The notes beneath the pieces are model-generated. The model worked only from the letters and a program-made list of their open reading frames with translations. It was not told where the DNA came from and ran no database searches. The position numbers and the translations under genes were made by a program. DNA of 58,582 bases from an uncultured bacterium (GTDB lineage Bacteria > Bacteroidota > Bacteroidia > CAILMK01): contig CAIKRV010000032.1 of assembly GCA_903829945.1 (NCBI GenBank), positions 1 through 58,582 of the forward strand, in the 5' to 3' direction. The number at the start of each line of letters is the position of its first letter. Position 1 is the stretch's first letter. Positions 32,079 through 58,582 of this stretch are shown here, in pieces.

Positions 32079-32786
32079 TTATTTGAGCATTCTCAATATT
32101 TTAGGAATATCACTGATGGTTACAATGCCCAATAATTTTTCAGTGGATTTGCCATTGGCCGTAATTAAAATGGAGTCTAATATTTTGCCGTTATTTTCAT
32201 AATCCTGAAACTTAGCCAAAGCCGTAAAAACCATTTCATCTTTTTTTAAAAAGCAATAGTTATTTTTATTTTCTGCAAAGCTGATGACTTTGGCAAGTGG
32301 TGTGTCATTTAAACTAAAAATATCCTCCTGTGAGGAAGCACCTAACCAGCGGCTCACTGTATCATTGGTTAATAAGCCCACAAAAACGCCTTTTTTGGAT
32401 AAAGGTAATTGTGAAAAGGAATGTTCGTACATGAGCCGCAAAGCTTTTCCTACTGATTCGTTAACGTCTAATTGAAAGACTTCCTTTTTGAAGGCAGGTA
32501 ATAGTTTAGGTGGATTGAAAAGTGCATTTTCAATCCGAATAATTAATTGGATACATGCATCATTGGGTTCAGCAATCACCATTCCATCCGCCCGTTCATG
32601 TACGATGGCATTACGTAAATCCCCCAATTGTCTTAAATCATCACGATATTCATATACAATTTTATTTTTTCGGCTCAATTCACGGACCATTTCATAAAAA
32701 CGTGCAGAAGTATCTAACTGCAATTCCTTACGAAGCTTCTGCTCTATTTTAGCAAAGCTTTCAAGAAATAATTCTGAGTTTTTCAT
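32079..32786 (-). CDS. CBS-domain protein with HEPN-like N-terminal helical domain
   Basis: This 235-residue protein has an all-helical N-terminal part (about residues 1-90) ending in LGDLRNAIVHE. The R58-N-A-I-V-H63 spacing is the Rx4H pattern of HEPN domains, which act as RNases or nucleotidyltransferase partners. Two CBS motifs follow (about 100-160, MYEHSFSQLPLSKKGVFVGLLTNDTVSRW, and about 165-235, LLGIVTISDIPK), a pair expected to sense adenine nucleotides. The start overlaps the upstream deoxynucleoside kinase stop by 4 bases, so translation is coupled. The HEPN assignment rests on the motif and helical content only. Confidence 0.8.
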   Translation of the reverse strand: MKNSELFLESFAKIEQKLRKELQLDTSARFYEMVRELSRKNKIVYEYRDDLRQLGDLRNAIVHERADGMVIAEPNDACIQLIIRIENALFNPPKLLPAFKKEVFQLDVNESVGKALRLMYEHSFSQLPLSKKGVFVGLLTNDTVSRWLGASSQEDIFSLNDTPLAKVISFAENKNNYCFLKKDEMVFTALAKFQDYENNGKILDSILITANGKSTEKLLGIVTISDIPKILRMLK

Positions 32787-33433
32787 GGTTTTATAACGTG
32801 TAATTTTTTCTCCCAGGGCTGTGCAATGAGATTAAGTAATTTATAATAATCACTATCCTGCATTACAAAATTCATTTCAGTAACATCAAGCAGTAAAATT
32901 GCCCTATTGGAAATAGATTTAAAATATTTCAAATAACTATGTTGGATATCCATCAAATAAGTATCTTCTATATCTAGCTCAAACGGACGTCCTCTTTTAT
33001 AAATATTGGTTTGTAAATTGGGCACTGAATTATGCAAATACACAATCAGGTCAGGGGTTTCAATTTGTCTGTAAAAGGTTTCAAATAATTGATAATATAA
33101 GCGGTATTGGTCGTCTTTCAGATTATTTTGTGCAAATACCAATGATTTATCAAATAAATAATCAGCTACAAAAAATGGATGAAACAAATCCTTTTTTCCG
33201 AGTCTTTGCTGCAATTGATTAAATCTTTCTACCAAAAAACTAATTTCCAGTGGGAAGGCATATTGTTCGGGGTCGTAATAAAACTTTTCCAGAAATGAAT
33301 TTTCAGTAAATTCTTCTAAAACCAATTCAGCGCCATAGGTTTCTGCAATCAATGAAGCCAAAGTTGTTTTTCCTACCCCGATATTACCTTCTATGGCAAT
33401 ATAATTATAAGGTATTTTATCAGGAATAATCAT
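32783..33433 (-). CDS. Deoxynucleoside kinase (deoxyadenosine/deoxyguanosine kinase family)
   Basis: This 216-residue protein has a P-loop at the N-terminus (EGNIGVGKTTLASLIAE), the substrate motif LEEFTENSFLEKFYYDP, and the DRY-like region replaced by FFVADYLFDKS. The lid segment KRGRPFELDIEDTYL follows. It phosphorylates deoxynucleosides for salvage; dA or dG is usual in this branch, but specificity cannot be read directly. It starts 4 bases after folK and overlaps the CBS gene by 4 bases, in a tight minus-strand run. Confidence 0.92.
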   Translation of the reverse strand: MIIPDKIPYNYIAIEGNIGVGKTTLASLIAETYGAELVLEEFTENSFLEKFYYDPEQYAFPLEISFLVERFNQLQQRLGKKDLFHPFFVADYLFDKSLVFAQNNLKDDQYRLYYQLFETFYRQIETPDLIVYLHNSVPNLQTNIYKRGRPFELDIEDTYLMDIQHSYLKYFKSISNRAILLLDVTEMNFVMQDSDYYKLLNLIAQPWEKKLHVIKP

Positions 33434-46584: not shown

Positions 46585-48198
46585 TTAAAAATTTGTCACC
46601 ATTCCTACTTTAAATCCGCTGAATGCAGGCTCTACCCTACATACACCACCTGTACAGACCACGCCTTGAACTTGCTTAATGTATCCACCCGTAAATCGGG
46701 TTTGCTTATAAGTATACACGCCGAATAAGGTAGGATAATGTACAATTTCGTTTCCTTTGGTAGGTTTGGTATTTACCATATCAGAAGCGGAGAAGGAGTA
46801 ACGTGGGGCCCAATTAAATTCAACTAAGCCATACGCAAAATCGCCTAAATCCTGTTTCGTAAATAAATATTGCGCTTCAAACCTTATCGATTTACGCATG
46901 GCATTATCAATTTTAAAAGTCCATTCCGTAAATGGGGTAAAGGCATGAACAACGGGTGCATTTGCCGTTCCTTGATAAACTTGCTGATCATAAATTATAA
47001 ATTGTACACCGCTGATTGTTTTAACGCGTTTGGATATTTTTTGATTTAAATCGAGGTAATATTCACGATAAATTTCTTTACCATTATCAGGCATGGTAAT
47101 ATGTGCTATATTCAAATCGAAGGTACTATGCTCACTAATGGAGTAGGTCACTTCTCCTTGGAAACCTTCTTCACCTTGCTCACGCGCAGAAATGCTATAT
47201 CGGGCCGGTAAGCGAAATGCTTGCTGTTTAGAAAGCGGTGGTAAAAAATCAATTTCCCCTACTAATAATTGATCATAAGGAGAACTGCGTAAAATAAATG
47301 AATTTATTTTTTTATACTGTAAAGTAATTCCTATACCGGGATGAGAATAATTTAAAATACCGTACAAAACATCACCTGCTTTATTGCGTAAAGCCATTTG
47401 TCCGCTACCCGCACTGGTCGTATCAATAAAGGTTGCTTCCTTGGTTTTTCCGGCATATTCTGAGTAAAGCGTAAATTCACCAGCTCTTAAAGTATTATAA
47501 AACGTATAGGCATACACATTGTATTTTGGATCAAAACCTACACGTTGCTGAATAGGCAAGGCATTAATTTGATCGGTCAATTGATTAATGGTCGCTTGAT
47601 CCAAAGTTCTATTCATAATACCTGTACCGGTTACAAAACTAAATTTAGGCCATCCCCAAACTTTTTCTGCGTTGGCGCCTTTTATAGTAGAAGAACGTAC
47701 ATCAAATCGATATTTTTGTACGCCGGCAAAAGCTTTAAACATAAAACTATCATTCGGAGCCCATCTAAAGCGTCCACCTTGTACGGCATAATCTAATCCT
47801 ATGGTTCGCTCTTCAAAAGCACGGAAGATAATTCCACTGCCTATCTGATCGTAAAATGAACCTGCGGTAATGCTAAATTTATCGAAATCCTTGGTAATGG
47901 AATAAAAACCTAATCCTTGCGCTGTATATGCTTCTTGTGGGTTCAGTAAAGGAGAGTTACTGTATAAATCATACCTTCCGGTAATGGTATATCCATTGTA
48001 TCTATAATTTAACAATAACCAACTTTCCGCTGAAGATAATTGGTGCAAATACTGAGTAGTGGTCGTTTTTATTTTACTATCATAATTGTAAAAACCTGCA
48101 TTGGTTTGCAAATCTCCCGAAAGTATCCCCTGGTCTTGGGCTTTGGAGGCAAATGATAATAAACTTATGGCTGAAAATAAAACAATTAGTCTTTTCAC
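46585..48198 (-). CDS. DUF6029-like outer-membrane beta-barrel protein
   Basis: This 537-residue protein has a signal peptide (residues 1-20, ending SKAQ) and a long run of alternating aromatic and polar strands ending in phenylalanine (FKVGMVTNF), the hallmark of an outer-membrane beta-barrel. The opening GILSGDLQTNAGFYNYDSKI matches the family I know as DUF6029, which usually sits next to Omp28-like or TlpA-like genes. Function is unknown; a partner or porter for the Omp28-like lipoprotein is plausible. The start codon is GTG. A -7 element and an inverted repeat lie upstream. Confidence 0.82.
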   Translation of the reverse strand: MKRLIVLFSAISLLSFASKAQDQGILSGDLQTNAGFYNYDSKIKTTTTQYLHQLSSAESWLLLNYRYNGYTITGRYDLYSNSPLLNPQEAYTAQGLGFYSITKDFDKFSITAGSFYDQIGSGIIFRAFEERTIGLDYAVQGGRFRWAPNDSFMFKAFAGVQKYRFDVRSSTIKGANAEKVWGWPKFSFVTGTGIMNRTLDQATINQLTDQINALPIQQRVGFDPKYNVYAYTFYNTLRAGEFTLYSEYAGKTKEATFIDTTSAGSGQMALRNKAGDVLYGILNYSHPGIGITLQYKKINSFILRSSPYDQLLVGEIDFLPPLSKQQAFRLPARYSISAREQGEEGFQGEVTYSISEHSTFDLNIAHITMPDNGKEIYREYYLDLNQKISKRVKTISGVQFIIYDQQVYQGTANAPVVHAFTPFTEWTFKIDNAMRKSIRFEAQYLFTKQDLGDFAYGLVEFNWAPRYSFSASDMVNTKPTKGNEIVHYPTLFGVYTYKQTRFTGGYIKQVQGVVCTGGVCRVEPAFSGFKVGMVTNF

Positions 48199-48218
48199 GT
48201 CGTCATTAAATTATTTCC

Positions 48219-48262
48219 CAAAGTTAACTACTTCAAATGAGTCTATGAAAAAATTAAGACTC
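48219..48262 (-). promoter_or_regulatory. Promoter element and inverted repeat ahead of the DUF6029-Omp28-pheT run
   Basis: Exact TAACTTTG (48219-48226, minus strand) is 21 bases from the GTG start. Upstream of it an inverted repeat GAGTCT (48239-48244) and AGACTC (48257-48262), with a 12-base spacer, overlaps the expected -33 region. An operator role is inferred. Confidence 0.45.
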
Positions 48263-48314
48263 AAATAATATGAAAATTAAAGAATTTGAAGTTTCAGGAC
48301 AGGAATTGTCCCGT

Positions 48315-49556
48315 TTAGCGATTAAATAATAGCTTGAAATAAAACATGGGACTCTTTAGTTTTGCCCTCAAATCCAAATTAATAAACATATTTGTAAATA
48401 TTTCTCGGAGTTGTTTATTATTGGTGATTTTATTCACTACAAAATTAAATAACCATGGAATGGATGATAATCTTTGAATTCGGTAGCTTAATTGCAACTC
48501 ATTCCATAATTTATCATAAATAATTTGATCGTATTGTTTGAGAAAATCAGCACTGAAATTTTGATTTTCAATGGCTGATTTTGCAATTCTGGCAGCAACC
48601 ATTCCACTTACTCCTGCATTGCCTATCCCCTCTCCGGTAAAAGGATCAATTAAGGAAGCAGCATCCCCGGTCAGGATAATTTGCTCTCCGGATAATGGCC
48701 TCTTTTTAGAGCCTAAAGGCAGTCCCCATCCATTTATTTTTCCATCTAAAACGGCATCTTTAAATCGATCTTTTAAGGCAGGATGCGTCTCAATTAAGTG
48801 TAGCATTTCTTTCCTTAAATTTATTTTCTTTTCACTCACTTTTTTTGATAACATTCCCATGCCTACATTGGCATATCCGTTGGGCAAAGGAAAAATCCAA
48901 AAATATCCGGGCAATAACTCCTTATAAAAATGAAGTTCAATAAAATTTTGAGGATGTAAATCCTTAACCCCTTTATAATAGGCTCGGATACCTGCGCAAT
49001 AGTGCTTTTCATCCACTTCGTCCCCTAATAATTTCTTTTTAGCGATGGATCTGGAACCATCCGCCGCAATAATCATTTGCCCACTAAGCTCAATTGTTTC
49101 CTGATTTTTATTGATCATTAAATTTACCACTTTGCCTTCTCTATGGATTTCTTCCAGGCTGGCGTTTTCCCACCTGGTAGCATATTCAGAATCGGTAAGT
49201 TGGTATAAAAAATAATCAAAGTCCATGCGTTTTGATACAAAGCCTATAGGCAAATCGCCTTTGGGCTTTGGAAAAGGAATCCCTACGGTTTGACCGTTCG
49301 GCGCTTTAAATTCCATCCCATAACTCAAAACAGCTTTTTCTTGGTCTGCTGCAAATTTTTTAACGGCCTCCGGATGGAGCTTGGCAATGATTTCCAGCAT
49401 TTTTCCACTGACGGCATCACCACATATTTTATCTCTTGGAAAGCTTCCTTTTTCAATAATTAAATGCGGAATTTTAAAATCACTTAAAAACAGTGAGCAA
49501 ACACATCCGGCCGGGCCTGCGCCAATAATGATTACCGGAAATTGTTTGACATTCAT
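48315..49556 (-). CDS. Geranylgeranyl-reductase-like FAD-dependent oxidoreductase
   Basis: This 413-residue flavoprotein has the FAD Rossmann motif VIIIGAGPAGCVCSLFL at the N-terminus, followed by KICGDAVSGKML, and the second FAD motif LTGDAASLIDPFTGEGIGNA (about residues 293-312). These mark the geranylgeranyl reductase/digeranylglyceroglycerophospholipid reductase group, whose members reduce isoprenoid chains, for instance in quinones. The bacterial substrate here is not defined. It has its own -7 element 33 bases upstream, inside the end of the radC region. Confidence 0.87.
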   Translation of the reverse strand: MNVKQFPVIIIGAGPAGCVCSLFLSDFKIPHLIIEKGSFPRDKICGDAVSGKMLEIIAKLHPEAVKKFAADQEKAVLSYGMEFKAPNGQTVGIPFPKPKGDLPIGFVSKRMDFDYFLYQLTDSEYATRWENASLEEIHREGKVVNLMINKNQETIELSGQMIIAADGSRSIAKKKLLGDEVDEKHYCAGIRAYYKGVKDLHPQNFIELHFYKELLPGYFWIFPLPNGYANVGMGMLSKKVSEKKINLRKEMLHLIETHPALKDRFKDAVLDGKINGWGLPLGSKKRPLSGEQIILTGDAASLIDPFTGEGIGNAGVSGMVAARIAKSAIENQNFSADFLKQYDQIIYDKLWNELQLSYRIQRLSSIPWLFNFVVNKITNNKQLREIFTNMFINLDLRAKLKSPMFYFKLLFNR

Positions 49557-49588
49557 GCTATGGATAATTTAAAATGTAGATGCTGCGC

Positions 49589-49596
49589 CAAAATTA
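49589..49596 (-). promoter_or_regulatory. -7 promoter element ahead of the reductase gene
   Basis: Exact TAATTTTG on the minus strand, 33 bases upstream of the start codon at 49556, next to the radC stop. Confidence 0.4.
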
Positions 49597-49602
49597 ACTA
49601 AA

Positions 49603-50307
49603 TTAGAGAATTCCTTCGTCAGCAAAGCTATAATAAGTTGTATCGGTAACAATAATATGATCCAGAATGGCAATATCTAAACTTTCAGCAGCCTTTTTAA
49701 TTTTTGAAGTCAAATCTATATCTGCTTTGCTGGGATTTAAATTTCCTGACGGATGATTATGACATAAAATAATACCGCTGGCCAATTCTTCCAAGGCATA
49801 TTTAAATATAATTTTGGCATCTACAAAAGTTCCGCTCACGCCGCCTTTGCTTATTTGTATTGCTTTTAAAATATGATTGCTCCTGCTGAGGAGTACGACA
49901 TAAAATTCTTCATGGCTCAGGTCATGAAAGTACGGTAAAATATAATCGTATATAATTTTGCTATTACTTACCTGAGTTTTTTGGGAAGTCTGTGAATCCT
50001 TGCGACGCCTACCCAATTCCAAGGCTGCAATAATAGTAATGGCTTTGGCCGGACCAATACCTTTTATGGAAGTAAGTTGTTTGATGGAAAGTTTGGCAAG
50101 ATTTGCCAAATCATTATTGACGGATTGAAGGAGCATTTTAGCTACTTCTACTGCCGTTTTATCTTTATAACCCGACCCTATTAAAATAGCAATCAGCTCT
50201 GCATCTGTCAGAGCTGATTTGCCTTTATCTGTAAGTTTTTCCCTGGGACGATCCTCTTTTGACCAGCTTTTGATAGTTAAGTTTGAGCTAACATCTTCAG
50301 CTGACAT
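49603..50307 (-). CDS. radC: RadC family JAMM-domain protein
   Basis: This 234-residue protein has an N-terminal helix-hairpin-helix region (IKGIGPAKAITIIAALELG) and a C-terminal JAMM/MPN+ metal site HNHPSGNLNPSKAD, with the preceding catalytic-type Glu in HEEFYVVLL. Length and motifs are normal for RadC (YeeS-like). Despite the historical DNA-repair name, its biochemical role is unsettled. It is 14 bases after rpsT on the minus strand. Confidence 0.95.
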   Translation of the reverse strand: MSAEDVSSNLTIKSWSKEDRPREKLTDKGKSALTDAELIAILIGSGYKDKTAVEVAKMLLQSVNNDLANLAKLSIKQLTSIKGIGPAKAITIIAALELGRRRKDSQTSQKTQVSNSKIIYDYILPYFHDLSHEEFYVVLLSRSNHILKAIQISKGGVSGTFVDAKIIFKYALEELASGIILCHNHPSGNLNPSKADIDLTSKIKKAAESLDIAILDHIIVTDTTYYSFADEGIL

Positions 50308-50321
50308 TCAATTAGTTAGGA

Positions 50322-50576
50322 TTATGCCAAGCGATTGATATATTTCGCTAACTTAGACTTTTTATTAGAAGCGTTGTTTTTGTGAATAACGCCACGCTTA
50401 GCTAATTTGTCTAGCATAGATGCAACAGAATTATAAGCTTTTGTTGCTTCAGTTTTGCTGGATACTGTACGTAATGCACGTATAGCATTACGAGTGGTTT
50501 TGCTGTAATAACGATTTCTTAATCTTCTAACAGAAATCTGTCTGATTCTTTTAATCGCTGATTTGTGATGTGCCAT
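50322..50576 (-). CDS. rpsT: 30S ribosomal protein S20
   Basis: This 84-residue basic protein binds 16S rRNA in the body of the small subunit. The opening [21 protein letters not shown] and the C-terminal [21 protein letters not shown] are the family signatures. It stands between the TlpA-like pair and radC, with a full promoter just upstream. Confidence 0.97.
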
Positions 50577-50596
50577 TTATTAAATTTTTCCGGGTG

Positions 50597-50627
50597 CAAA
50601 GGTATAAAAATATTCGAAATAATCCAA
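50597..50627 (-). promoter_or_regulatory. rpsT promoter
   Basis: On the minus strand a TTG (50625-50627), a 20-base spacer and an exact TACCTTTG (50597-50604) match the Bacteroidota consensus. The -7 element is 21 bases upstream of the rpsT start codon. This is the best-formed promoter seen in the window. Confidence 0.7.
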
Positions 50628-50635
50628 AAAAGGAA

Positions 50636-51139
50636 TTATTTAATCTCATTGAGCCTTTTTTCAAAGGCTTCCTCGCCAGTGGCATCGTATCCTACTTGTT
50701 TATGAATAATATTACCTTTCTTATCGACTACAATTAAAAAAGGAATGGTATTAATTTTGAAGGTTTGAGATGCGATTCCTTTATAATCCAATAATATAGG
50801 GAAAGTCCATCCTTTATTTTTAGCAAAGGTCTTCAAGTCCTCCAAACTTTTTTCCTGGTCAACCGAAATGGCATAGAAATCAGCATTATACTTCTTTTTC
50901 CAAGAAGCTAATTTAGAACTATAGGAGGCTAATTCCGCTTTACACGGACCGCACCAAGTGGCCCAAAATGAATAAATAGTAGTTTTGCCGGTACCTGCAA
51001 TACTCTTTAAATCAACTTCTTTGTTGTTTAAATCCATTACTTTAATAGAAGGTATCGGTGCAGGAGATTCTCCAACCGTAAATGCGCCTGCCGATAACAG
51101 TATCGCAGCAAATAAAACGAATAAAGTGTATTTTTTCAT
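50636..51139 (-). CDS. TlpA-like thioredoxin-fold protein (second of a tandem pair)
   Basis: This 167-residue protein has a signal peptide (residues 1-19) and a thioredoxin-like TlpA domain with active site CGPC in SFWATWCGPCKAEL, then ISVDQEKSLEDLKTFAKNKGW and the cis-Pro segment NTIPFLIVVDKKGNI. It should act as a periplasmic thiol reductase. It starts 17 bases after a paralogue of the same length, clearly a gene duplication. Partner proteins are not evident nearby. Confidence 0.92.
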   Translation of the reverse strand: MKKYTLFVLFAAILLSAGAFTVGESPAPIPSIKVMDLNNKEVDLKSIAGTGKTTIYSFWATWCGPCKAELASYSSKLASWKKKYNADFYAISVDQEKSLEDLKTFAKNKGWTFPILLDYKGIASQTFKINTIPFLIVVDKKGNIIHKQVGYDATGEEAFEKRLNEIK

Positions 51140-51156
51140 ATAATTTAGCGTATTTT

Positions 51157-51663
51157 TTACTTAATTAAATTCTTTAACTGATCCTCCAGAACAAACTCAT
51201 CTCCTTCCTGATAGCCGATGTGTTTATATACAATTTTACCATCTTTATCTACAATTAAAGTATAAGGAACACTCGGATAATTCAAGGCTCTGCGTGTTTC
51301 TGAATTAACATCAGATAAAACAATAAATCTCCATTTTTTACCATCAACATACGGTTTAACCTTCATTAGGTTACGTGTATCATCAATAGAAATGGCCACT
51401 AATTGAGCATTGTATTTTTTACCCCATTCTTCCAAATGATCTGTCATGTTTTCCAATTCCTTCTTGCAAGGTGAGCACCAAGTCGCCCAAAATGAAATAA
51501 TGGTAACTTTACCTTGTTGAGTAAATTTCTTAAGATCAATATCTTTACCTTCCAAATCCTTCAATGTTATTTGAGGGAAATCGGTCTTAACGGTGGTTTC
51601 GGTTTGAGCTTGCAAACGGCCAAATCCCAACAAGATAAGCCCGATGATCAATACTTTTTTCAT
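51157..51663 (-). CDS. TlpA-like thioredoxin-fold protein (first of a tandem pair)
   Basis: This 168-residue protein has a signal peptide (residues 1-19, ending LQAQ) and a TlpA domain with active site CSPC in SFWATWCSPCKKEL, then ISIDDTRNLMKVKPYVDGKKW and the cis-Pro segment PSVPYTLIVDKDGKI. The difference in the two central CxxC residues (CSPC here, CGPC in the neighbour) suggests different redox potentials or partners. It begins the unit and has its own -7 element. Confidence 0.92.
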   Translation of the reverse strand: MKKVLIIGLILLGFGRLQAQTETTVKTDFPQITLKDLEGKDIDLKKFTQQGKVTIISFWATWCSPCKKELENMTDHLEEWGKKYNAQLVAISIDDTRNLMKVKPYVDGKKWRFIVLSDVNSETRRALNYPSVPYTLIVDKDGKIVYKHIGYQEGDEFVLEDQLKNLIK

Positions 51664-51692
51664 GTTATAATTTAAATATTCTCAAGTTTGTA

Positions 51693-51700
51693 CAAATATA
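51693..51700 (-). promoter_or_regulatory. -7 promoter element ahead of the TlpA pair
   Basis: Exact TATATTTG on the minus strand, 30 bases upstream of the start codon at 51663. Confidence 0.5.
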
Positions 51701-51756
51701 CTGCCAAATTAAATGGTAAGGAAATGCGTATAAATATTTTAAATGTTTTCTCACAA

Positions 51757-51785
51757 AAAAAAGGATGTACACCCGGTACATCCTT
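51757..51785 (-). terminator. Intrinsic terminator after hppD
   Basis: A perfect 10-bp stem, AAGGATGTAC (51761-51770) and GTACATCCTT (51776-51785), with a 5-base loop. Read on the minus strand it continues into a run of T, so it ends the hmgA-hppD transcript. Confidence 0.92.
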
Positions 51786-51814
51786 AATAATTCGAGTAAA
51801 TATATTCTTTAAAA

Positions 51815-52942
51815 TTATAAATTTCCTCTTAAATCTTGCTCACGTTCAATCGCTTCAAACAAGGCTTTGAAATTGCCTTTTCCGAAGGAACGAGCACCTT
51901 TACGTTCAATTATTTCAAAAAATAAGGTTGGACGATCTTCCAATGGTTTAGTGAATATTTGTAATAAATACCCTTCCTCATCCTTATCCACCAAAATATC
52001 CAATGCGCGCAAAATTTCAACATCCTCGTCAATTTTGCCAACACGTTCCAATAATTCGTCATAATAATAGCCCGGAACGCTTAAAAATTCTACCCCTCTT
52101 TTTCTTAATTCTGAAACGGTATGAATAATATTATCGGTGGCTAAGGCCAAATGTTGTACCCCGGGACCTTCATAAAATTCAATGTATTCCTCAATTTGAG
52201 ATTTCTTTTTTCCGGCAGCCGGTTCATTAATCGGAAACTTAATATATCCGTTCCCATTAGAAACCACCTTGCTCATTAACGCAGAATATTCAGTGGAAAT
52301 ATCCGAATCATCAAAAGTAATTAAATTATAAAAGCCCATTACTTTTTCATAGTATTCCACCCATTTATTCATGGCGCCTAATTCTACATTACCCACGGCA
52401 TGATCCACGAATTTCAATCCTACATCTTCCGGATTGAAGGAAGATTCCCATTTGCGATACCCAGGCAAAAATACCCCATGGTAATTTTTACGTTCTACAA
52501 ATAAATTAACGGTATCTCCGTAGGTACGAATACCTGAAATTACAATTTTCCCGTCTTTATCCTCAATGGTGGTCGGCTCCATGAATGAAATACCGCCCCT
52601 TGAAGTTGTTTCCAGGTAAGATTTACTTGCATCATTTACTGTAATTGCATATACCTTGATGCCATCTCCATGCTTACGTAAATGGTCATTGATAGGATGT
52701 GATGAATTAAGCGGTGTGGTAAGTACCAATGTAATTTTACCTTGTCTTAATACATAGGAAACCTTATCTCTGGATCCGGTTTCCAATCCTTGATACGCTA
52801 AGGATTGAAATCCAAAAGCGGTTTTGTAAAAATGTGCTGCCTGCTTGGCATTGCCTACATATAGTTCTAAATAATCGGTCCCTAAAAGAGGTAAAAAATC
52901 TTCTGCTTGTTTCTTTTGGGGTTCTAAAACTTGAGTATCCAT
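51815..52942 (-). CDS. hppD: 4-hydroxyphenylpyruvate dioxygenase
   Basis: This iron enzyme turns 4-hydroxyphenylpyruvate into homogentisate in tyrosine breakdown. From the ATG at 52942 it has 375 residues with two VOC domains. The iron ligands are visible as His in LKFVDHAVGNVEL, His in GVQHLALATDNI, and Glu in TLFFEIIERKG. The frame stays open to a TTG at 52978, inside the end of hmgA; the ATG giving MDTQVLEPQKK is preferred. It follows hmgA by 26 bases, so product and next-step enzyme are made together. Confidence 0.96.
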   Translation of the reverse strand: MDTQVLEPQKKQAEDFLPLLGTDYLELYVGNAKQAAHFYKTAFGFQSLAYQGLETGSRDKVSYVLRQGKITLVLTTPLNSSHPINDHLRKHGDGIKVYAITVNDASKSYLETTSRGGISFMEPTTIEDKDGKIVISGIRTYGDTVNLFVERKNYHGVFLPGYRKWESSFNPEDVGLKFVDHAVGNVELGAMNKWVEYYEKVMGFYNLITFDDSDISTEYSALMSKVVSNGNGYIKFPINEPAAGKKKSQIEEYIEFYEGPGVQHLALATDNIIHTVSELRKRGVEFLSVPGYYYDELLERVGKIDEDVEILRALDILVDKDEEGYLLQIFTKPLEDRPTLFFEIIERKGARSFGKGNFKALFEAIEREQDLRGNL

Positions 52943-52968
52943 TGTAATAATATATTTTGAGTGTTTAA

Positions 52969-54117
52969 TTATAACCAACTTTTAAAATAATCTTTGTCTT
53001 CAATATGAGCAGCTGCTTCAGTCAATTTTAAAGGATGGAAGGTATCAATCATGACTGCTAATTCCTTTGTTTCTTTGGCTCCGATACTCTTTTCAACCGT
53101 ACCCGGATGCGGACCATGAGGAATGCCTTTAGGATGCAAGGTAATTTGTCCTCTTACCACGTGTTTACGACTCATAAAATCTCCATCTACATAGTACAAT
53201 ACTTCATCGGAATCAATATTGCTATGATTATACGGCGCAGGAATTGATAATGGATGATAATCAAACAAACGTGGCACAAACGAACAAATGACAAAATTAT
53301 TCGCTTCAAAGGTTTGATGCACGGGAGGCGGCTGATGTATTCTTCCGGTTATCGGTTCAAAATTATGAATAGAAAAAGCATAAGGATAGCAGCAACCATC
53401 CCATCCTATCAAATCGAAGGGATGGGTAGCATAAACATAAGGAAATATACGATCTTGCTTTTTAATAAAAATTTCAAACTTTCCAACTTCAGTATGAGTT
53501 TCTAAATTTTGCGGTTTGCGAATATCACGCTCACAAAATGGCGCATGTTCCATCAATTGACCATATTTGCTCAGGTATCTTTTTGGAGGAACGATCGGGG
53601 TAAAAGATTCCGCATATAAAATCCGATTGTTGGTGCCTTCAAAATCTAATTGATATACTAATCCACGCGGGATAATTAAATAATCACCATACTCAAAAGG
53701 GATACTTCCAAAAGCACTTTTTAATACGCCTTTGCCTTCGTGAATAAAGAGCATTTCATCCGCATCCGCATTTTTAAAAAAATAAGACATGGATTGTGTT
53801 GGTGCAGCTACGCCTACATAAACATCATTATTGACTAATAATGGAACCCTGCTTTTAATATAATCTTCCGCGGGAGGGGTATTGAATGTTACATAACTCC
53901 GGTGCTGCATGTTTTCTGCCACTGCAATTTTTGGTGCTATGCTATAGGATGGACCAATTTCCAATACTTTGGTTGGCGGATGAACATGGTATAATAAGGA
54001 ATAATCATTAGAGAATCCTTCTGTTGAGAACAATTCTTCGGCATACAATTGACCATCAGGTTGACGGAAGATGGTATGCCGCTTAGGAGGAATTTGACCT
54101 AAACTATAATAATGCAT
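52969..54117 (-). CDS. hmgA: Homogentisate 1,2-dioxygenase
   Basis: This 382-residue enzyme opens the ring of homogentisate, the product of HppD. The cupin-type fold shows in EMLFIHEGKGVLKSAFGSIPFEYGDYLIIPRG. The iron-site neighbourhood is PPPVHQTFEANNFVICSFVPRLFDYHP and GIPHGPHPGTVEKSI. It is shorter than the about 440-residue mammalian and Pseudomonas enzymes, as is usual for the Bacteroidota branch. It leads the hmgA-hppD operon; an exact -7 element and a perfect inverted repeat lie immediately upstream. Confidence 0.93.
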   Translation of the reverse strand: MHYYSLGQIPPKRHTIFRQPDGQLYAEELFSTEGFSNDYSLLYHVHPPTKVLEIGPSYSIAPKIAVAENMQHRSYVTFNTPPAEDYIKSRVPLLVNNDVYVGVAAPTQSMSYFFKNADADEMLFIHEGKGVLKSAFGSIPFEYGDYLIIPRGLVYQLDFEGTNNRILYAESFTPIVPPKRYLSKYGQLMEHAPFCERDIRKPQNLETHTEVGKFEIFIKKQDRIFPYVYATHPFDLIGWDGCCYPYAFSIHNFEPITGRIHQPPPVHQTFEANNFVICSFVPRLFDYHPLSIPAPYNHSNIDSDEVLYYVDGDFMSRKHVVRGQITLHPKGIPHGPHPGTVEKSIGAKETKELAVMIDTFHPLKLTEAAAHIEDKDYFKSWL

Positions 54118-54135
54118 ATATGGCGGTTAACCATA

Positions 54136-54165
54136 CAAAATTAATGAAAAAATATCATTTTTCAT
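54136..54165 (-). promoter_or_regulatory. hmgA promoter with adjoining perfect inverted repeat
   Basis: Exact TAATTTTG (54136-54143, minus strand) is 19 bases from the hmgA start codon. Directly upstream is a perfect 8-bp inverted repeat, ATGAAAAA (54144-54151) and TTTTTCAT (54158-54165), with a 6-base spacer. It fills the -7/-33 spacer, so a repressor or activator could bind there. Candidate operator of tyrosine catabolism. Confidence 0.55.
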
Positions 54166-54235
54166 GATGTCAGCTTCCGATGAAAAGTTTTAGTTTAAAG
54201 TGCTTTATTCCTCATAATCTGAAACATTTAGCTAT

Positions 54236-54263
54236 TTGAGTATTATTTTAATCATTACTTTTG
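54236..54263 (+). promoter_or_regulatory. Promoter of the methyltransferase gene
   Basis: TTG (54236-54238), a 17-base spacer and an exact TACTTTTG (54256-54263), 35 bases before the start codon. Confidence 0.55.
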
Positions 54264-54298
54264 TTGTGTAATTTTCTAACTATATTTAATTATCATCC

Positions 54299-55207
54299 AT
54301 GGATTCCCAGTATCTGGACTTACTTGTTCATCCTGTTAATAAATTGGCATTAAAGTTTGATGGCGTTAATAATCAATTAGTTGAAGAAAGTACCGGGGAT
54401 TGTTTTTCAATTAAAGAAGGAGTTCCTGTCCTATTGAGTAAAATAGCCCCTAAAAATATCAGCAAAACGGAAATACATAACAGTGAAGGCACTCAATTTG
54501 AATATAGAGCCCACTACCAAAATGATGCGGAATTATTTGATTATACTGCTGAAACAAAAGACCCCTTAGAAAAAGCAGAAATACAACGTTTACACCAAAA
54601 TATTTTAGCTGAAGTACCTAAAAATGCCAGTTGGATTTTGGATGTTGGAACCGGTGGTGCTTGGTTAGCCAAAAATTTGGTTCCACTTGGAAAAAATGTG
54701 ATATCCATGGATATTTCCGAAAAAAATCCAATTCGTGCAATTAAAAATTTGCCTTCATCACATCATTTTGCACTGGTAGCCGATGTATTCGAATTACCCA
54801 TTAAAGATAATGCTATGGACGTTATTGTTGCTTCGGAAATTATTGAACATCTTAGTCAACCCGGTGTTTTTATTGCAGCTCTTTACAAGGCCTTAAAGCC
54901 CGGCGGGAAAATTATTATTACTACCCCTTACAATGAAACCATTCAATATTCGCAGTGCATTCATTGTAATCATTTGACTCCACAAAATGCACATTTGCAT
55001 TCCTTTACTGAATATTCTATTTTGAAATTTCTTCCGGAAAACATTAAATCTTATCAAACAAAAATCATTAATAATAAAATATTGGCCAAATTGCGGTTGC
55101 AATTAATTTTAAAAGGACTTCCCTTGCCCCTTTGGAATATCGTAGATAAAATTAGTAATAAGATTATTAAGAAGTCTTTCCGATTGATGTTGATTATTAA
55201 AAAATAA
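54299..55207 (+). CDS. Class I SAM-dependent methyltransferase with Trm112-like N-terminus
   Basis: This 302-residue protein has a Trm112p-like opening (LDLLVHPVNKLALKFDGVNN ... SIKEGVPVLL, about residues 5-46) and then a methyltransferase type 11 domain. The SAM motif is ILDVGTGGAWLAKNL (about 117-131), with VIVASEIIEHLSQPG and LKPGGKIIITTPY. The fusion of a Trm112-like part to a methyltransferase is common in surface polysaccharide and secondary-metabolite clusters, and a flippase lies next to it. Substrate unknown. Its stop codon directly abuts that of the convergent flippase gene. Confidence 0.85.
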   Translation: MDSQYLDLLVHPVNKLALKFDGVNNQLVEESTGDCFSIKEGVPVLLSKIAPKNISKTEIHNSEGTQFEYRAHYQNDAELFDYTAETKDPLEKAEIQRLHQNILAEVPKNASWILDVGTGGAWLAKNLVPLGKNVISMDISEKNPIRAIKNLPSSHHFALVADVFELPIKDNAMDVIVASEIIEHLSQPGVFIAALYKALKPGGKIIITTPYNETIQYSQCIHCNHLTPQNAHLHSFTEYSILKFLPENIKSYQTKIINNKILAKLRLQLILKGLPLPLWNIVDKISNKIIKKSFRLMLIIKK

Positions 55208-56518
55208 TTATATCAAGGTGGAAATAAAATAAACAACTATGCTTACTATGGCATAAAAGCCCCAAATTTTAACAGAAACATAAGAGGAGAATTCAACACC
55301 TTCCCGGTGACAATACCATGCTAAAATAACTTTATGCAGCATAAAAGATATTAAGGTGGCAAAGGCAATGCCCAACATCCCAAAATAATAAATAAATACA
55401 GCATCCAAAATTACATTGATGCCCCATTCCATAGCCGATGCACGGAAGAGTTGCCCATTTTTTTGCATGGAAAGTAAAATAGTATGCGGAAAAAGTAAGC
55501 GGCTGATAATTATTAATAGATAAACATTAAATATACCTGCTGAAAGACTAAATGCAGGAGTGTACACCCATGAAAATAGAAATTTACTGACGAGTAAAAA
55601 AACTATAGTGACAGGGAAAAACAAATGCAGCAATTGCGTACTTCTGCGTTTTATAATAGCCAATCCTTCCTTCATATTTCCCAGTACATGATGGGAGGCC
55701 AATTCTGCACTCATGGCATTGCTAAAGGAATTGGCCAATAAGGTAACAAAAGGCAATTCTAAGGCACCATAACTAAAAACTGCAAAATCGGCATCATTAT
55801 AATAATGGGTAACAAATAAACTATCAATATAGCCCATGCTGGAGCCGATAATTAAGGAGCCGATATAGGGACCGGTACGACTACTGAGTAAGCGCATTTC
55901 TTCCCAATGAAATTGTATGCCATAATGTTTCAAGACATAAAAAATCAAAAATAAATAGCGGATCATTGCGCTTATTCCCAGCAATATTAAGGAAGTATAT
56001 AAGGTGGTATCAAATAATAAAGGAATCGCCAGTGCTAAGGTTTGCATTAAAAATACACATACACCATACCATAATAATTCTTTAGATTTTTTGCGCAATA
56101 AAAAAATGTACTCCATCAAAAATGCAGGCGCATTGAATAGCGTAAATAAAATAAATACATGGTACAATTCAAAATGTTCATGGATGATGGATTTTTCTAT
56201 TATTAAAAGCACCCCACAAGCCAACAGGGATATAAGGCTCAGTAATATTATTGCATTCGAAATAAGATAAGATTGTTTCTTCGAATTGACGGCAGCATAA
56301 TACGGTAATAATGGATCGATAATTCCGGATACCCAAAAGGAAGTTGCCAATTGCCCAATCAATAAAAGCTTTTCATAAAATCCAATTAATTCTTTGCCGG
56401 GCAGCACTCTGGCCAATACCACAGAAAGAATCATCCTGGAAGCAAATCTTAATAATTGAAATACCTGCAAAGCACGCAAGGAATCAATTTTCAATTTGCT
56501 GAAAAGTGTTTTTACCAT
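55208..56518 (-). CDS. Polysaccharide flippase (Wzx/MATE-like)
   Basis: This 436-residue protein has about twelve membrane helices and few charged residues. The N-terminal region QLLRFASRMILSVVLARVLP and the second-half motif with SSMGYIDSLFVTHYYNDADFAVFSYG are typical of the oligosaccharide flippase (Wzx/MOP) superfamily, which moves lipid-linked glycans across the inner membrane. The start overlaps the upstream FucP-like gene by 7 bases. No polysaccharide polymerase or glycosyltransferase cluster lies beside it, so its cargo cannot be named. Confidence 0.83.
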   Translation of the reverse strand: MVKTLFSKLKIDSLRALQVFQLLRFASRMILSVVLARVLPGKELIGFYEKLLLIGQLATSFWVSGIIDPLLPYYAAVNSKKQSYLISNAIILLSLISLLACGVLLIIEKSIIHEHFELYHVFILFTLFNAPAFLMEYIFLLRKKSKELLWYGVCVFLMQTLALAIPLLFDTTLYTSLILLGISAMIRYLFLIFYVLKHYGIQFHWEEMRLLSSRTGPYIGSLIIGSSMGYIDSLFVTHYYNDADFAVFSYGALELPFVTLLANSFSNAMSAELASHHVLGNMKEGLAIIKRRSTQLLHLFFPVTIVFLLVSKFLFSWVYTPAFSLSAGIFNVYLLIIISRLLFPHTILLSMQKNGQLFRASAMEWGINVILDAVFIYYFGMLGIAFATLISFMLHKVILAWYCHREGVEFSSYVSVKIWGFYAIVSIVVYFISTLI

Positions 56519-57780
56519 TTAAAAATTTTATGTCCTTTTACCGCATAAAAGAAAATGTAAGCATAAATGGGTATCAGTAGCCAATAGGCGTTTTTAAAAC
56601 CAATGGAAGGCGTATTGGCCAATTGTGCGTATAATAATGGCATAACAGCCCCACCGGCAATGCACATCACCAAAATGGCAGAACCGGTTTTGGTAAATTT
56701 TCCTAATCCGTGTATGGCTAACGGCCAAATGGCAGGCCAAACTAAAGCGTTGGCGATGCCCAAAGAGGCAATAAATAAAATGGACTCATACCCTTCCGAA
56801 GTCAGTGCCAAACCTGTGACGAGAATCCCTAATAAGGCGGTCATGGATAAGGCCTTGGCTTGCGTAATTATTTTTGGAATCATCACTATGCCTATAATAT
56901 ATCCAATGACCATTCCCGCCAAGGTATAGGAGGTAAAAATACGTGCATCCTGCAAGGGAATATGCATGGACTGCCCGTATAATATGATGGTATCCCCGCA
57001 AACTACTTCTGCACCCACATATAAAAATATACCTAAAGCGCCCAATATTAAATTTGGAAATTGAAATATTGAGGTATGTTCCTGTTTTAATATGTCAGAT
57101 GTAATATCTTTCTCATCTTCTTCATTTTCTTGTTCAATTTCCGGTAAGGATGAAAAATATAACATCACCGCTAATCCTACCAAAACTAAAGCCATCAGGC
57201 AATAAGGCAAAATTGCTTTGGCTGCCAATTCATTTAAAATTTTATTTTTTAATTCGGGTGAGGCCGTTTTTACCCGCTCCATCACTGAATCTGCATCATT
57301 TAAAATAACCGCGCCTAAAATTATTGGGGCCAATACCCCGGCAATTTTATTAGCAATCCCCATAATACTGATTCTTTTGGCAGCACTCTCAATAGGACCA
57401 ACTATAGTCACATAGGGATTGGAAGCGGTTTGCAGCAAGGCTAATCCGGTACCAATAATAAATAATCCCAATAAAAATAAAGCATAAATTCTACTTAAAG
57501 CTGCCGGGACAAATATTAAAGCTCCAAGGGCCATGACCACTAATCCCAACATCATCCCTTTTTTAAATCCCGTACGCTCCAATATTTTTGATGCCGGTAA
57601 GGACATTACAAAATAGGAAATATAAAACGCAAAAGCAACCAACATAGCCTCTACCGGTTTCAATTCACATGAAATTCTCAGATAAGGAATAAGGGTGCTA
57701 TTGAGCCATGTTACAAATCCAAAAATGAAGAATAAGGAGCCTAAGATGAGTACCGGCCCTATATTTGAACGTTTATCCAT
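56512..57780 (-). CDS. FucP-type sugar:proton MFS transporter
   Basis: This 422-residue major facilitator protein has twelve membrane helices and the family opening LGSLFFIFGFVTWLNSTLIPYL, seen in FucP and GluP glucose/galactose/fucose carriers. Further conserved parts are TASNPYVTIVGP (about residues 122-133) and GTGLALLQ. It should bring hexoses in with protons. It is translationally coupled (7-base overlap) to the flippase gene. Confidence 0.92.
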   Translation of the reverse strand: MDKRSNIGPVLILGSLFFIFGFVTWLNSTLIPYLRISCELKPVEAMLVAFAFYISYFVMSLPASKILERTGFKKGMMLGLVVMALGALIFVPAALSRIYALFLLGLFIIGTGLALLQTASNPYVTIVGPIESAAKRISIMGIANKIAGVLAPIILGAVILNDADSVMERVKTASPELKNKILNELAAKAILPYCLMALVLVGLAVMLYFSSLPEIEQENEEDEKDITSDILKQEHTSIFQFPNLILGALGIFLYVGAEVVCGDTIILYGQSMHIPLQDARIFTSYTLAGMVIGYIIGIVMIPKIITQAKALSMTALLGILVTGLALTSEGYESILFIASLGIANALVWPAIWPLAIHGLGKFTKTGSAILVMCIAGGAVMPLLYAQLANTPSIGFKNAYWLLIPIYAYIFFYAVKGHKIFKW

Positions 57781-57823
57781 TGGTTTAATTATTGCTGCGA
57801 ATATAAGTACTTATTAAATTTTA

Positions 57824-57831
57824 TAACTTTG
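57824..57831 (+). promoter_or_regulatory. -7 promoter element ahead of the repeat protein gene
   Basis: Exact TAACTTTG, 17 bases before the ATG at 57849. Confidence 0.5.
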
Positions 57832-57848
57832 AATTAAATAAAATAATC

Positions 57849-58256
57849 ATGAAACGTTTACAATTCTTGCTCTTTTTTACGTTTTTGTCAGTATTTGGCT
57901 ATAGTCAAAGAATAGAAGACAGCCATTATGCCACCAAAAATTATATTCACGAAGATGGTCGTATTGAAGACGCACATTATACTACAGTTGGATATATAAA
58001 GCAAGATGGTCGCATAGAGGATGCTCATTATACTACCATAGGTTATATTCATAATGACGGACGAATTGAAGATGCCCATTATTCCACCGTAGGTTACGTC
58101 CATGCTGATGGCCGTGTGGAAGATGCACACTACAGTACATTAGGATATATCCATGAAGATGGCCGGGTGGAAGATGCCCATTACAGTACTTTAGGCTATG
58201 CCAAAGGCATCAAAAAGGAATGGGCTGCCATACAGTTCTTCTTCTTTAAACTATGA
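57849..58256 (+). CDS. Secreted six-repeat protein (beta-flower-like)
   Basis: This 135-residue protein has a signal peptide (residues 1-20, ending YSQ). Residues 21-120 are six tandem copies of a 17-residue unit, consensus RIEDAHYSTxGYIHxDG; the last copy is two residues short. The tail IKKEWAAIQFFFFKL closes it. Each unit reads as two short strands with a turn at DG, so a closed radial fold of repeated blades is likely. I recall similar Bacteroidota proteins annotated as beta-flower proteins, which had no known function. Copies differ at silent positions, so the protein sequence is being conserved. Confidence 0.85.
   Translation: MKRLQFLLFFTFLSVFGYSQRIEDSHYATKNYIHEDGRIEDAHYTTVGYIKQDGRIEDAHYTTIGYIHNDGRIEDAHYSTVGYVHADGRVEDAHYSTLGYIHEDGRVEDAHYSTLGYAKGIKKEWAAIQFFFFKL
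57909..58208 (+). repeat. Six tandem 51-base coding repeats
   Basis: Six in-frame units of 51 bases (17 residues), the last one 45 bases. Codons for the same residues differ between copies (for example EDAH is GAAGACGCACAT, GAGGATGCTCAT and GAAGATGCCCAT), so the array is old or kept free of recombination. Confidence 0.92.
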
Positions 58257-58320
58257 GCGATCCAATGATTTTTTTGGAAACTTAATATCTTTTTACGTTA
58301 TTCGCAGTTCATAATTTTTC

Positions 58321-58582
58321 ATGAATTTACCAGATATTTACCGAAAGGCTATTTTTTTTATTATTGCAGCCGCTTGCTTCAGTCCTTTTATAGACCCTCC
58401 TATTGCCTTATTATTAGGACTAATTTTAGCGCAAACCATAGGACATCCTTATAAAGCTAAAAATTCCAAATTCACTAAAATATTACTGCAAAGTTCAGTG
58501 GTAGGATTGGGATTTGGGATGAATTTTTTCAAGGCGATGAAAGCCGGACAGGAAGGTATTTTATTTACCATTAGTACTATAG
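58321..58582 (+). CDS. YeiH/UPF0324 family putative sulfate exporter (partial, runs off the window)
   Basis: The first 87 residues are visible, starting at the ATG at 58321. Membrane helices appear at about residues 10-23 and 27-42, then ILLQSSVVGLGFGMNFFKA, the hallmark of the YeiH/UPF0324 family annotated as putative sulfate exporters. The C-terminal part lies beyond the window. The start was chosen as the first ATG giving a short cytoplasmic N-terminus before the first helix. The 64-base gap from the repeat protein shows only a weak TATCTTTT element. Confidence 0.85.
   Translation, partial: MNLPDIYRKAIFFIIAAACFSPFIDPPIALLLGLILAQTIGHPYKAKNSKFTKILLQSSVVGLGFGMNFFKAMKAGQEGILFTISTI

Follow-up and report, generated by a model that had tools for sequence, protein, structure and literature searches.

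The name beta-flower was given to the fold in 2023 on the basis of predicted models (Durairaj et al. 2023, PMC10584680), and the excerpts of that paper used here describe beta-flowers that are four-, five-, or sixfold and have 8, 10, or 12 strands, a hydrophobic C-terminal helix being enclosed in many of them. The Pfam family PF21785 (Bflower_2) was created in the same work as one of its beta-flower families. The beta-flowers were grouped with the tubby domain in one clan, are circularly permuted relative to tubby, and have shorter strands, and the structure 1ZXU is displayed beside a beta-flower model (PMC10584680, excerpts). For the LOR proteins a barrel of 12 strands around a central C-terminal helix is described (PMC10264818, excerpt). 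The excerpts of PMC10584680, PMC7618865, and PMC12225799 give no function for beta-flowers, the term is also carried by PMC7618909, and no function of the fold was found in the literature searched, in agreement with a preliminary description of the present DNA that had assigned the protein no known function.

A Six-Unit Member of PF21785

The window (the whole stretch of 58,582 nucleotides that was analyzed) carries on its + strand a PF21785 gene with six repeat units (57849–58256) that starts with ATG and encodes 135 amino acids. A putative signal peptide (residues 1–19, 57849–57905, + strand) consists of a hydrophobic run followed by SQ and a presumed cleavage site, and Cys is absent from both the leader and the mature part. 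The mature part continues on the same strand with unit 1, RIEDSHYATKNYIHEDG (57909–57959), unit 2, RIEDAHYTTVGYIKQDG (57960–58010), unit 3, RIEDAHYTTIGYIHNDG (58011–58061), unit 4, RIEDAHYSTVGYVHADG (58062–58112), unit 5, RVEDAHYSTLGYIHEDG (58113–58163), and unit 6, RVEDAHYSTLGYA (58164–58202), in which the last strand leads without an xDG turn into the tail KGIKKEWAAIQFFFFKL (58203–58253, + strand). Within this tail residues 123–132 (58215–58244) are predicted to form a helix, residues 130–133 (58236–58247) are FFFF, and the whole may act as a plug. In the protein, unit 6 reads RVEDAHYSTLGYAK followed by GIK, and the C-terminal tail after the six 17-residue units is GIKKEWAAIQFFFFKL. Upstream of the gene, TAACTTTG (57824–57831, + strand), 17 bases 5′ of the ATG, matches TAnnTTTG, the Bacteroidota −7 element; it is a weak lead only, the window contains 112 copies of TAnnTTTG where chance alone would give about 90, and a promoter and terminator scan gave nothing usable.

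A 51-bp array was detected at 57942–58183 (score 190, Tandem Repeats Finder), and in the mature part (116 residues) a lag of 17 residues gives 64 identities over 99 positions, compared with a best count of 21 at any lag from 5 to 39 in 5000 shuffles. The 17-residue periodicity is far beyond chance. The six-unit repeat and the FFFF tail reported in the preliminary description are present; its wording of "near-identical" units is fair for units 2–5 (76% mean pairwise protein identity). Unit 1 is more diverged and has 7–9 of 13 columns in common with the other units, and unit 6 is without the turn.

The protein matches the whole PF21785 profile (positions 1–112 of 112, protein residues 19–134) with 133.9 bits against a curated cut-off of 38 (E = 2.8e-39), and at E ≤ 0.001 the profile is matched by all 77 aligned proteins (the window protein and 76 of 76 relatives). 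PF21784 (Bflower, "4-fold beta flower protein") stays under its cut-off for the window protein (E = 0.31) and is weakly matched by 8 of the 77. All Pfam rows outside the beta-flowers are under cut-off for the window protein, no NCBIfam match was found for it, and WYL_2 (53 of 77 proteins), Yopt (38 of 77), and other weak Pfam rows (best E = 1e-07) were judged to be driven by the repeat and rejected. Judged by its profile match, far over the cut-off, the window protein is a new member of the known family PF21785, which upholds the earlier term "beta-flower-like"; it is ordinary in kind, a member of a known, uncharacterised family. Among genome contigs, a survey biased by its reliance on unit-like patterns found 344 stretches that encode relatives, and the best 80 of the 344 were kept. 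A tail with FFF or longer is present in all of these 80, of which, by title, 79 presumably belong to Bacteroidota groups and one to the Ignavibacteria. The best match among the relatives (L027, 57% identity) lies in a genome titled Ignavibacteria, where it may reflect transfer or mis-binning.

Selection on the Repeat Unit

For the window gene, pS is 0.72, near saturation, and pN is 0.19 when the six units are compared at columns 1–13; over the full length of units 2–5 the values are 0.75 and 0.16. Across a set of 80 genes (the window gene and 79 relatives) pS is more than twice pN for units 2–5 in every gene, with means of 0.71 and 0.14. Because synonymous sites are near saturation while the protein units are alike, the units are, on this codon evidence, old copies kept alike by selection on the protein, as had been argued earlier from codon differences between the copies. 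At columns 2, 10, and 13, units that hold equivalent positions in different proteins agree better (0.85, 0.69, and 0.85) than do the units within a protein (0.53, 0.33, and 0.49), and the six units therefore predate the spread of the protein set.

Predicted Structure

The full chain was modeled by AlphaFold2 with a mean pLDDT of 90.6 and a pTM of 0.76 (five models, 85.1–90.6, 77 aligned sequences) and the mature chain with a pLDDT of 95.6 and a pTM of 0.84 (five models, 93.8–95.6, 80 sequences). AlphaFold2 can favor regular folds for perfect repeats. Both models contain twelve short strands, two per unit (4–6 residues long in the full chain, 4–5 in the mature chain), followed by a C-terminal helix (residues 123–130 and 123–132, respectively), and the leader of the full chain is modeled as a helix (residues 2–16, pLDDT 63–68). 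In these confident predictions the twelve short strands with a hydrophobic C-terminal helix are those of a six-fold beta-flower. These two models are consistent with the closed ring and hydrophobic plug of the preliminary description, in that ring closure and the position of the helix inside the ring can be inferred from them. The reading we favor, with a probability of roughly 0.85, is that the protein is a six-petal, twelve-strand beta-flower of family PF21785.

When VIA-align was applied to Foldseek's top 1000 PDB chains, 1ZXU, the Arabidopsis tubby-like/LOR (DUF567) protein At5g01750, ranked first for both models. The alignment with the full-chain model reaches Z 8.3 (101 residues, 3.1 Å, model residues 26–130) and that with the mature-chain model Z 8.2 (100 residues, 3.3 Å, mature residues 1–112, extending into the helix), values at the edge of the 7–8 that VIA-align's own warning gives as the typical best Z for models without a clear match; the next rows have Z 5.8 and 4.4, respectively. 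The span of the second alignment, mature residues 1–112, lends indirect support to a closed ring with the helix inside. It is through these two Z values that the models show likeness to the fold of clan CL0395 (tubby, scramblase, LOR, and beta-flowers). The original description of the LOR barrel is said to be that of Bateman et al. from 2009. Foldseek searches of the PDB with both models (best 50 of 403 and best 50 of 351 rows considered) gave nothing at E ≤ 0.001, so that the tubby likeness rests on the VIA-align scores, and Durairaj et al. likewise found nothing significant for beta-flowers in the PDB (PMC10584680, excerpts). A PDB sequence search with the window protein had a best E of 0.073, and 1ZXU was not among its matches. 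Two further structural candidates were set aside: 3FZX (a Bacteroides exported protein), second for the full chain with Z 5.8, is absent from the 40 listed rows of the mature chain, and the rows for Rhs, teneurin, sialidase, and actinohivin (query TM-score ≤ 0.32) were deemed chance likeness.

Ring-Wide Change at Two Unit Columns

The six units of a protein carry one and the same residue at column 3 in 93 of 101 rows and at column 7 in 81 of 101, but which residue this is varies from protein to protein (column 3: E, Q, R, M, or Y; column 7: Y, R, H, G, or N). Within the 80-protein set the two columns are uniform in 76 and 61 proteins, compared with averages of 2.8 and 0.8 (largest 9 and 5) when residues are shuffled between proteins, a control that ignores kinship. 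On a rough tree from which both columns were left out (124 columns; 56 of its 96 inner branches unresolved), column 3 requires at least 10 changes and column 7 at least 16, both rough figures. The rows include identical pairs (L050/L002 and L093/L004) and many Chryseobacterium proteins, and kinship among rows weakens all counts on these columns. In some Chryseobacterium proteins both R and H are present at column 7, a pattern suggestive of stepwise replacement. The uniformity is not explained by a recent conversion of the units to the sequence of one of them, because synonymous sites are close to saturation.

The joint change of two ring columns, read from aligned sequences, is new here, and it gives a hint of one functional face made up of the entire ring. 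Because the columns switch together although the copies have not been homogenized at the DNA level, selection might act on the ring as one binding face of sixfold symmetry, with a ligand that shifts among lineages, a doubtful extension of this hint that assumes columns 3 and 7 to be exposed. We know of no natural single-chain sixfold receptor of such a kind, and a thin literature search on joint change of repeats returned only unrelated work. If true, the acidic, His-rich branch of the window protein would read another ligand than its Lys-rich relatives. The ring-wide columns provide a testable lead to the ligand.

Localization and Proposed Function

The protein is probably exported and soluble, export being suggested by the hydrophobic leader. 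The mature chain would fold by itself to give a shallow ring, to which each 17-residue unit contributes two of the twelve short antiparallel strands. In this arrangement tight xDG turns would link five units to the next unit, the first and last strands together would form the sixth petal and close the ring, and the hydrophobic C-terminal helix (KEWAAIQFFF) would pack within the ring as a plug. Such a protein would act as a binding module in the periplasm or at the cell surface, where the side chains repeated six times round the ring would present a multivalent patch for an envelope component. Lipid head groups, an LPS sugar, or another repeated ligand are candidates, offered as a guess. A symmetric ligand is possible, and binding at the sixfold face is put forward tentatively; a lipid ligand, guessed by analogy with tubby-like membrane binding, is a good deal more doubtful. 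With a net charge of −8 and a pI of 5.6, the fourth lowest of 80, the window protein exceeds most relatives in acidity, and this charge speaks against anionic-lipid binding through a positive patch.

Histidine Content and a Possible Metal Site

The window protein is unusual within the 80-protein set. It contains ten His in 116 residues, whereas the median over the set, to which it belongs, is 1 and one relative reaches 14. At column 14 the Lys of the relatives is replaced by His at four of five turns, and the protein is one of 6 out of 80 with His at column 6 in all six units. Together with the acidic character these features would fit a metal-binding ring, in which His and acidic residues of each unit (RIEDAHY) hold Zn or another metal at six equal sites. 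This alternative is unlikely: the His residues are not conserved in the family, where Ser predominates at column 6 (242 of 320 units) and Tyr, Arg, or His occupies column 7, and the protein lacks Cys. The peculiarities of the window variant may point to another ligand or a metal, or be without significance.

Occurrence, Neighborhood, and Mobility

A profile search of the window's own genome found PF21785 in the beta-flower gene only, in one copy, and gave no match for PF21784 or PF21786; PF21785 had no match in 14 control genomes. At E ≤ 0.001, a protein search found relatives in 22 of 100 genomes, and PF21785 was found in 52 of 198 genomes of the class (48 over cut-off) and in 24 of 395 genomes of a phylum sample (15 over cut-off), the window's genome being included in all three counts. 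The protein search gave no match in the 11 nearest genomes (G001–G011; one of the same genus, 78% complete, two of the same family, and eight of the same order), and the gene is therefore not a fixed part of the lineage. This distribution is patchy and the gene may have moved between lineages.

A total of 637 ORFs of at least 80 amino acids from 80 loci (up to 5 kb on each side) and from window positions 48000–58582 were clustered, and no pathway or common neighbor was found among the 25 largest clusters. The larger clusters come either from Chryseobacterium, among them that of an RCC1-like repeat protein (so named by eye; 13 loci, all Chryseobacterium by title), or from a single flavobacterial group of five loci, and the smaller clusters cover three to six loci at varied distances. 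The one cluster that includes the window joins its thioredoxin-like pair, about 6 kb away, to one ORF each of L043 and L053, 1301 and 36 bases past the beta-flower gene; as a common family it was given no weight.

In the window, this tandem thioredoxin-like (AhpC-TSA/Redoxin) pair (50636–51139 and 51157–51663, − strand) has leader-like N-termini. At 51815–54117 (− strand) a gene of the hydroxyphenylpyruvate dioxygenase N-terminal family adjoins one of the homogentisate 1,2-dioxygenase N-terminal family (52969–54117), by sequence likely a tyrosine breakdown pair. An MFS transporter gene (56512–57780, − strand) is divergent from the beta-flower gene, and two membrane-protein-like ORFs (55208–56518, − strand, and 58321–58581, + strand, the latter cut by the window end) have no Pfam match at 1e-5. 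A 24-bp tandem repeat of 1.9 copies (32929–32974) lies within an ORF (32783–33433, − strand) that presumably encodes a deoxynucleoside kinase.

The patchy spread (none in the 11 nearest genomes), the absence of a gene neighborhood common to the relatives, and one distant plasmid copy (30% identity) would also fit a freely moving accessory gene, a self-folding repeat with no specific ligand that is carried between lineages or derived from phages. A few short phage proteins align in a viral structure library (Foldseek probability 0.90–1.00 over 49–84 columns; best match A0A6J5NLS9, 33% identity over 49 columns; none at E ≤ 0.001). However, no sequence match was found in 50,697 phage records at E 1e-5, none of 230 candidate stretches of viral contigs was confirmed as a beta-flower, and the strong constraint between units and on the tail argues against a ligandless mobile gene, which makes this alternative improbable. 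The phage proteins A0A6J5NLS9 and A0A889IPS9, which align with part of the full-chain model (probability 1.00 and 0.97, E about 5e-3), could be half-flowers or chance hairpins.

Six Units and the Five-Fold Label

The six-unit register fits 80 of 81 close proteins by a script that sought six units only, and the 81st (L036) fits by eye with one unit shortened; six units are thus found in all 81 close proteins, and not the variable, unrelated repeats that would disagree with the preliminary description. By eye, six units are present in 22 of the 24 loci L002–L025 (the exceptions being the broken L021 and the decayed L025) and in 10 of 23 loci of another set that overlaps partially with the first. 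The other 13 loci of the latter set comprise five with about four or fewer units (L123 and L125–L128), four that are decayed or different (L116, L117, L120, and L129), three that are parts of longer proteins (L121, L122, and L124), and the unread L115. The tail is changed in L019 and L112. The proteins of L123, L125, and L126 have 93–103 amino acids, about four units and no signal peptide by eye, and tails that end in ALWLLFVR, ALWYCFIR, or AMWWFFVR; they are perhaps four-fold relatives.

PF21785 and an annotated Prevotella relative are both named "5-fold beta-flower protein" (Pfam, NCBI), and the type example A0A494VZL1 is given as ten strands and 96 residues (PMC10584680, excerpts). The window protein has five xDG turns, and the turn pattern occurs five times in 75, four times in 4, and six times in 1 of the 80 relatives. 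A beta-flower that is truly five-fold, its ring having ten strands and leaving out one sequence unit of the six, would account for these observations but is quite improbable, as two high-confidence models have twelve strands, two for each of six units, in place of ten strands in five units, and the closest solved structure, 1ZXU, is of a kind described as twelve-stranded. The five xDG turns may be the source of the "five-fold" family name. The motif [DNEQ]XXG is semiconserved at hairpin tips (PMC10584680, excerpts), so not strictly defining; as written it matches none of the five tips of the window protein (HEDG, KQDG, HNDG, HADG, and HEDG), which retain only its Gly. New here is the conflict of the five-fold label with six units and twelve predicted strands.

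An outer-membrane barrel or pore, for which the probable export and an aromatic-rich C-terminus resembling the BAM signal (a C-terminus rich in aromatic residues) could be counted, is very improbable, because model strands of 4–5 residues (4–6 in the full chain) are too short to cross the outer membrane, where a strand needs about nine or more residues, and, of the four Phe, three belong to the predicted helix and not to a strand. The outer-membrane location suggested in the earlier description therefore finds no support as a spanning barrel in the models, and there is no Cys for a lipid anchor.

Comparison with Known Systems

The six-petal beta-flower favored here would be a small, Cys-free, and near-perfectly sixfold protein, an easy target for crystallography. 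It has the idea of the fold in common with PF21784 (Bflower). The tubby/LOR structure 1ZXU and the window model both have twelve strands and a C-terminal helix, whereas the two proteins share 11–12% identity and the window protein is bacterial, probably exported, and built of near-identical units. With its own family, PF21785, the window protein has the aromatic tail in common; the family is labeled five-fold, whereas six units are present in this member and in its close relatives.
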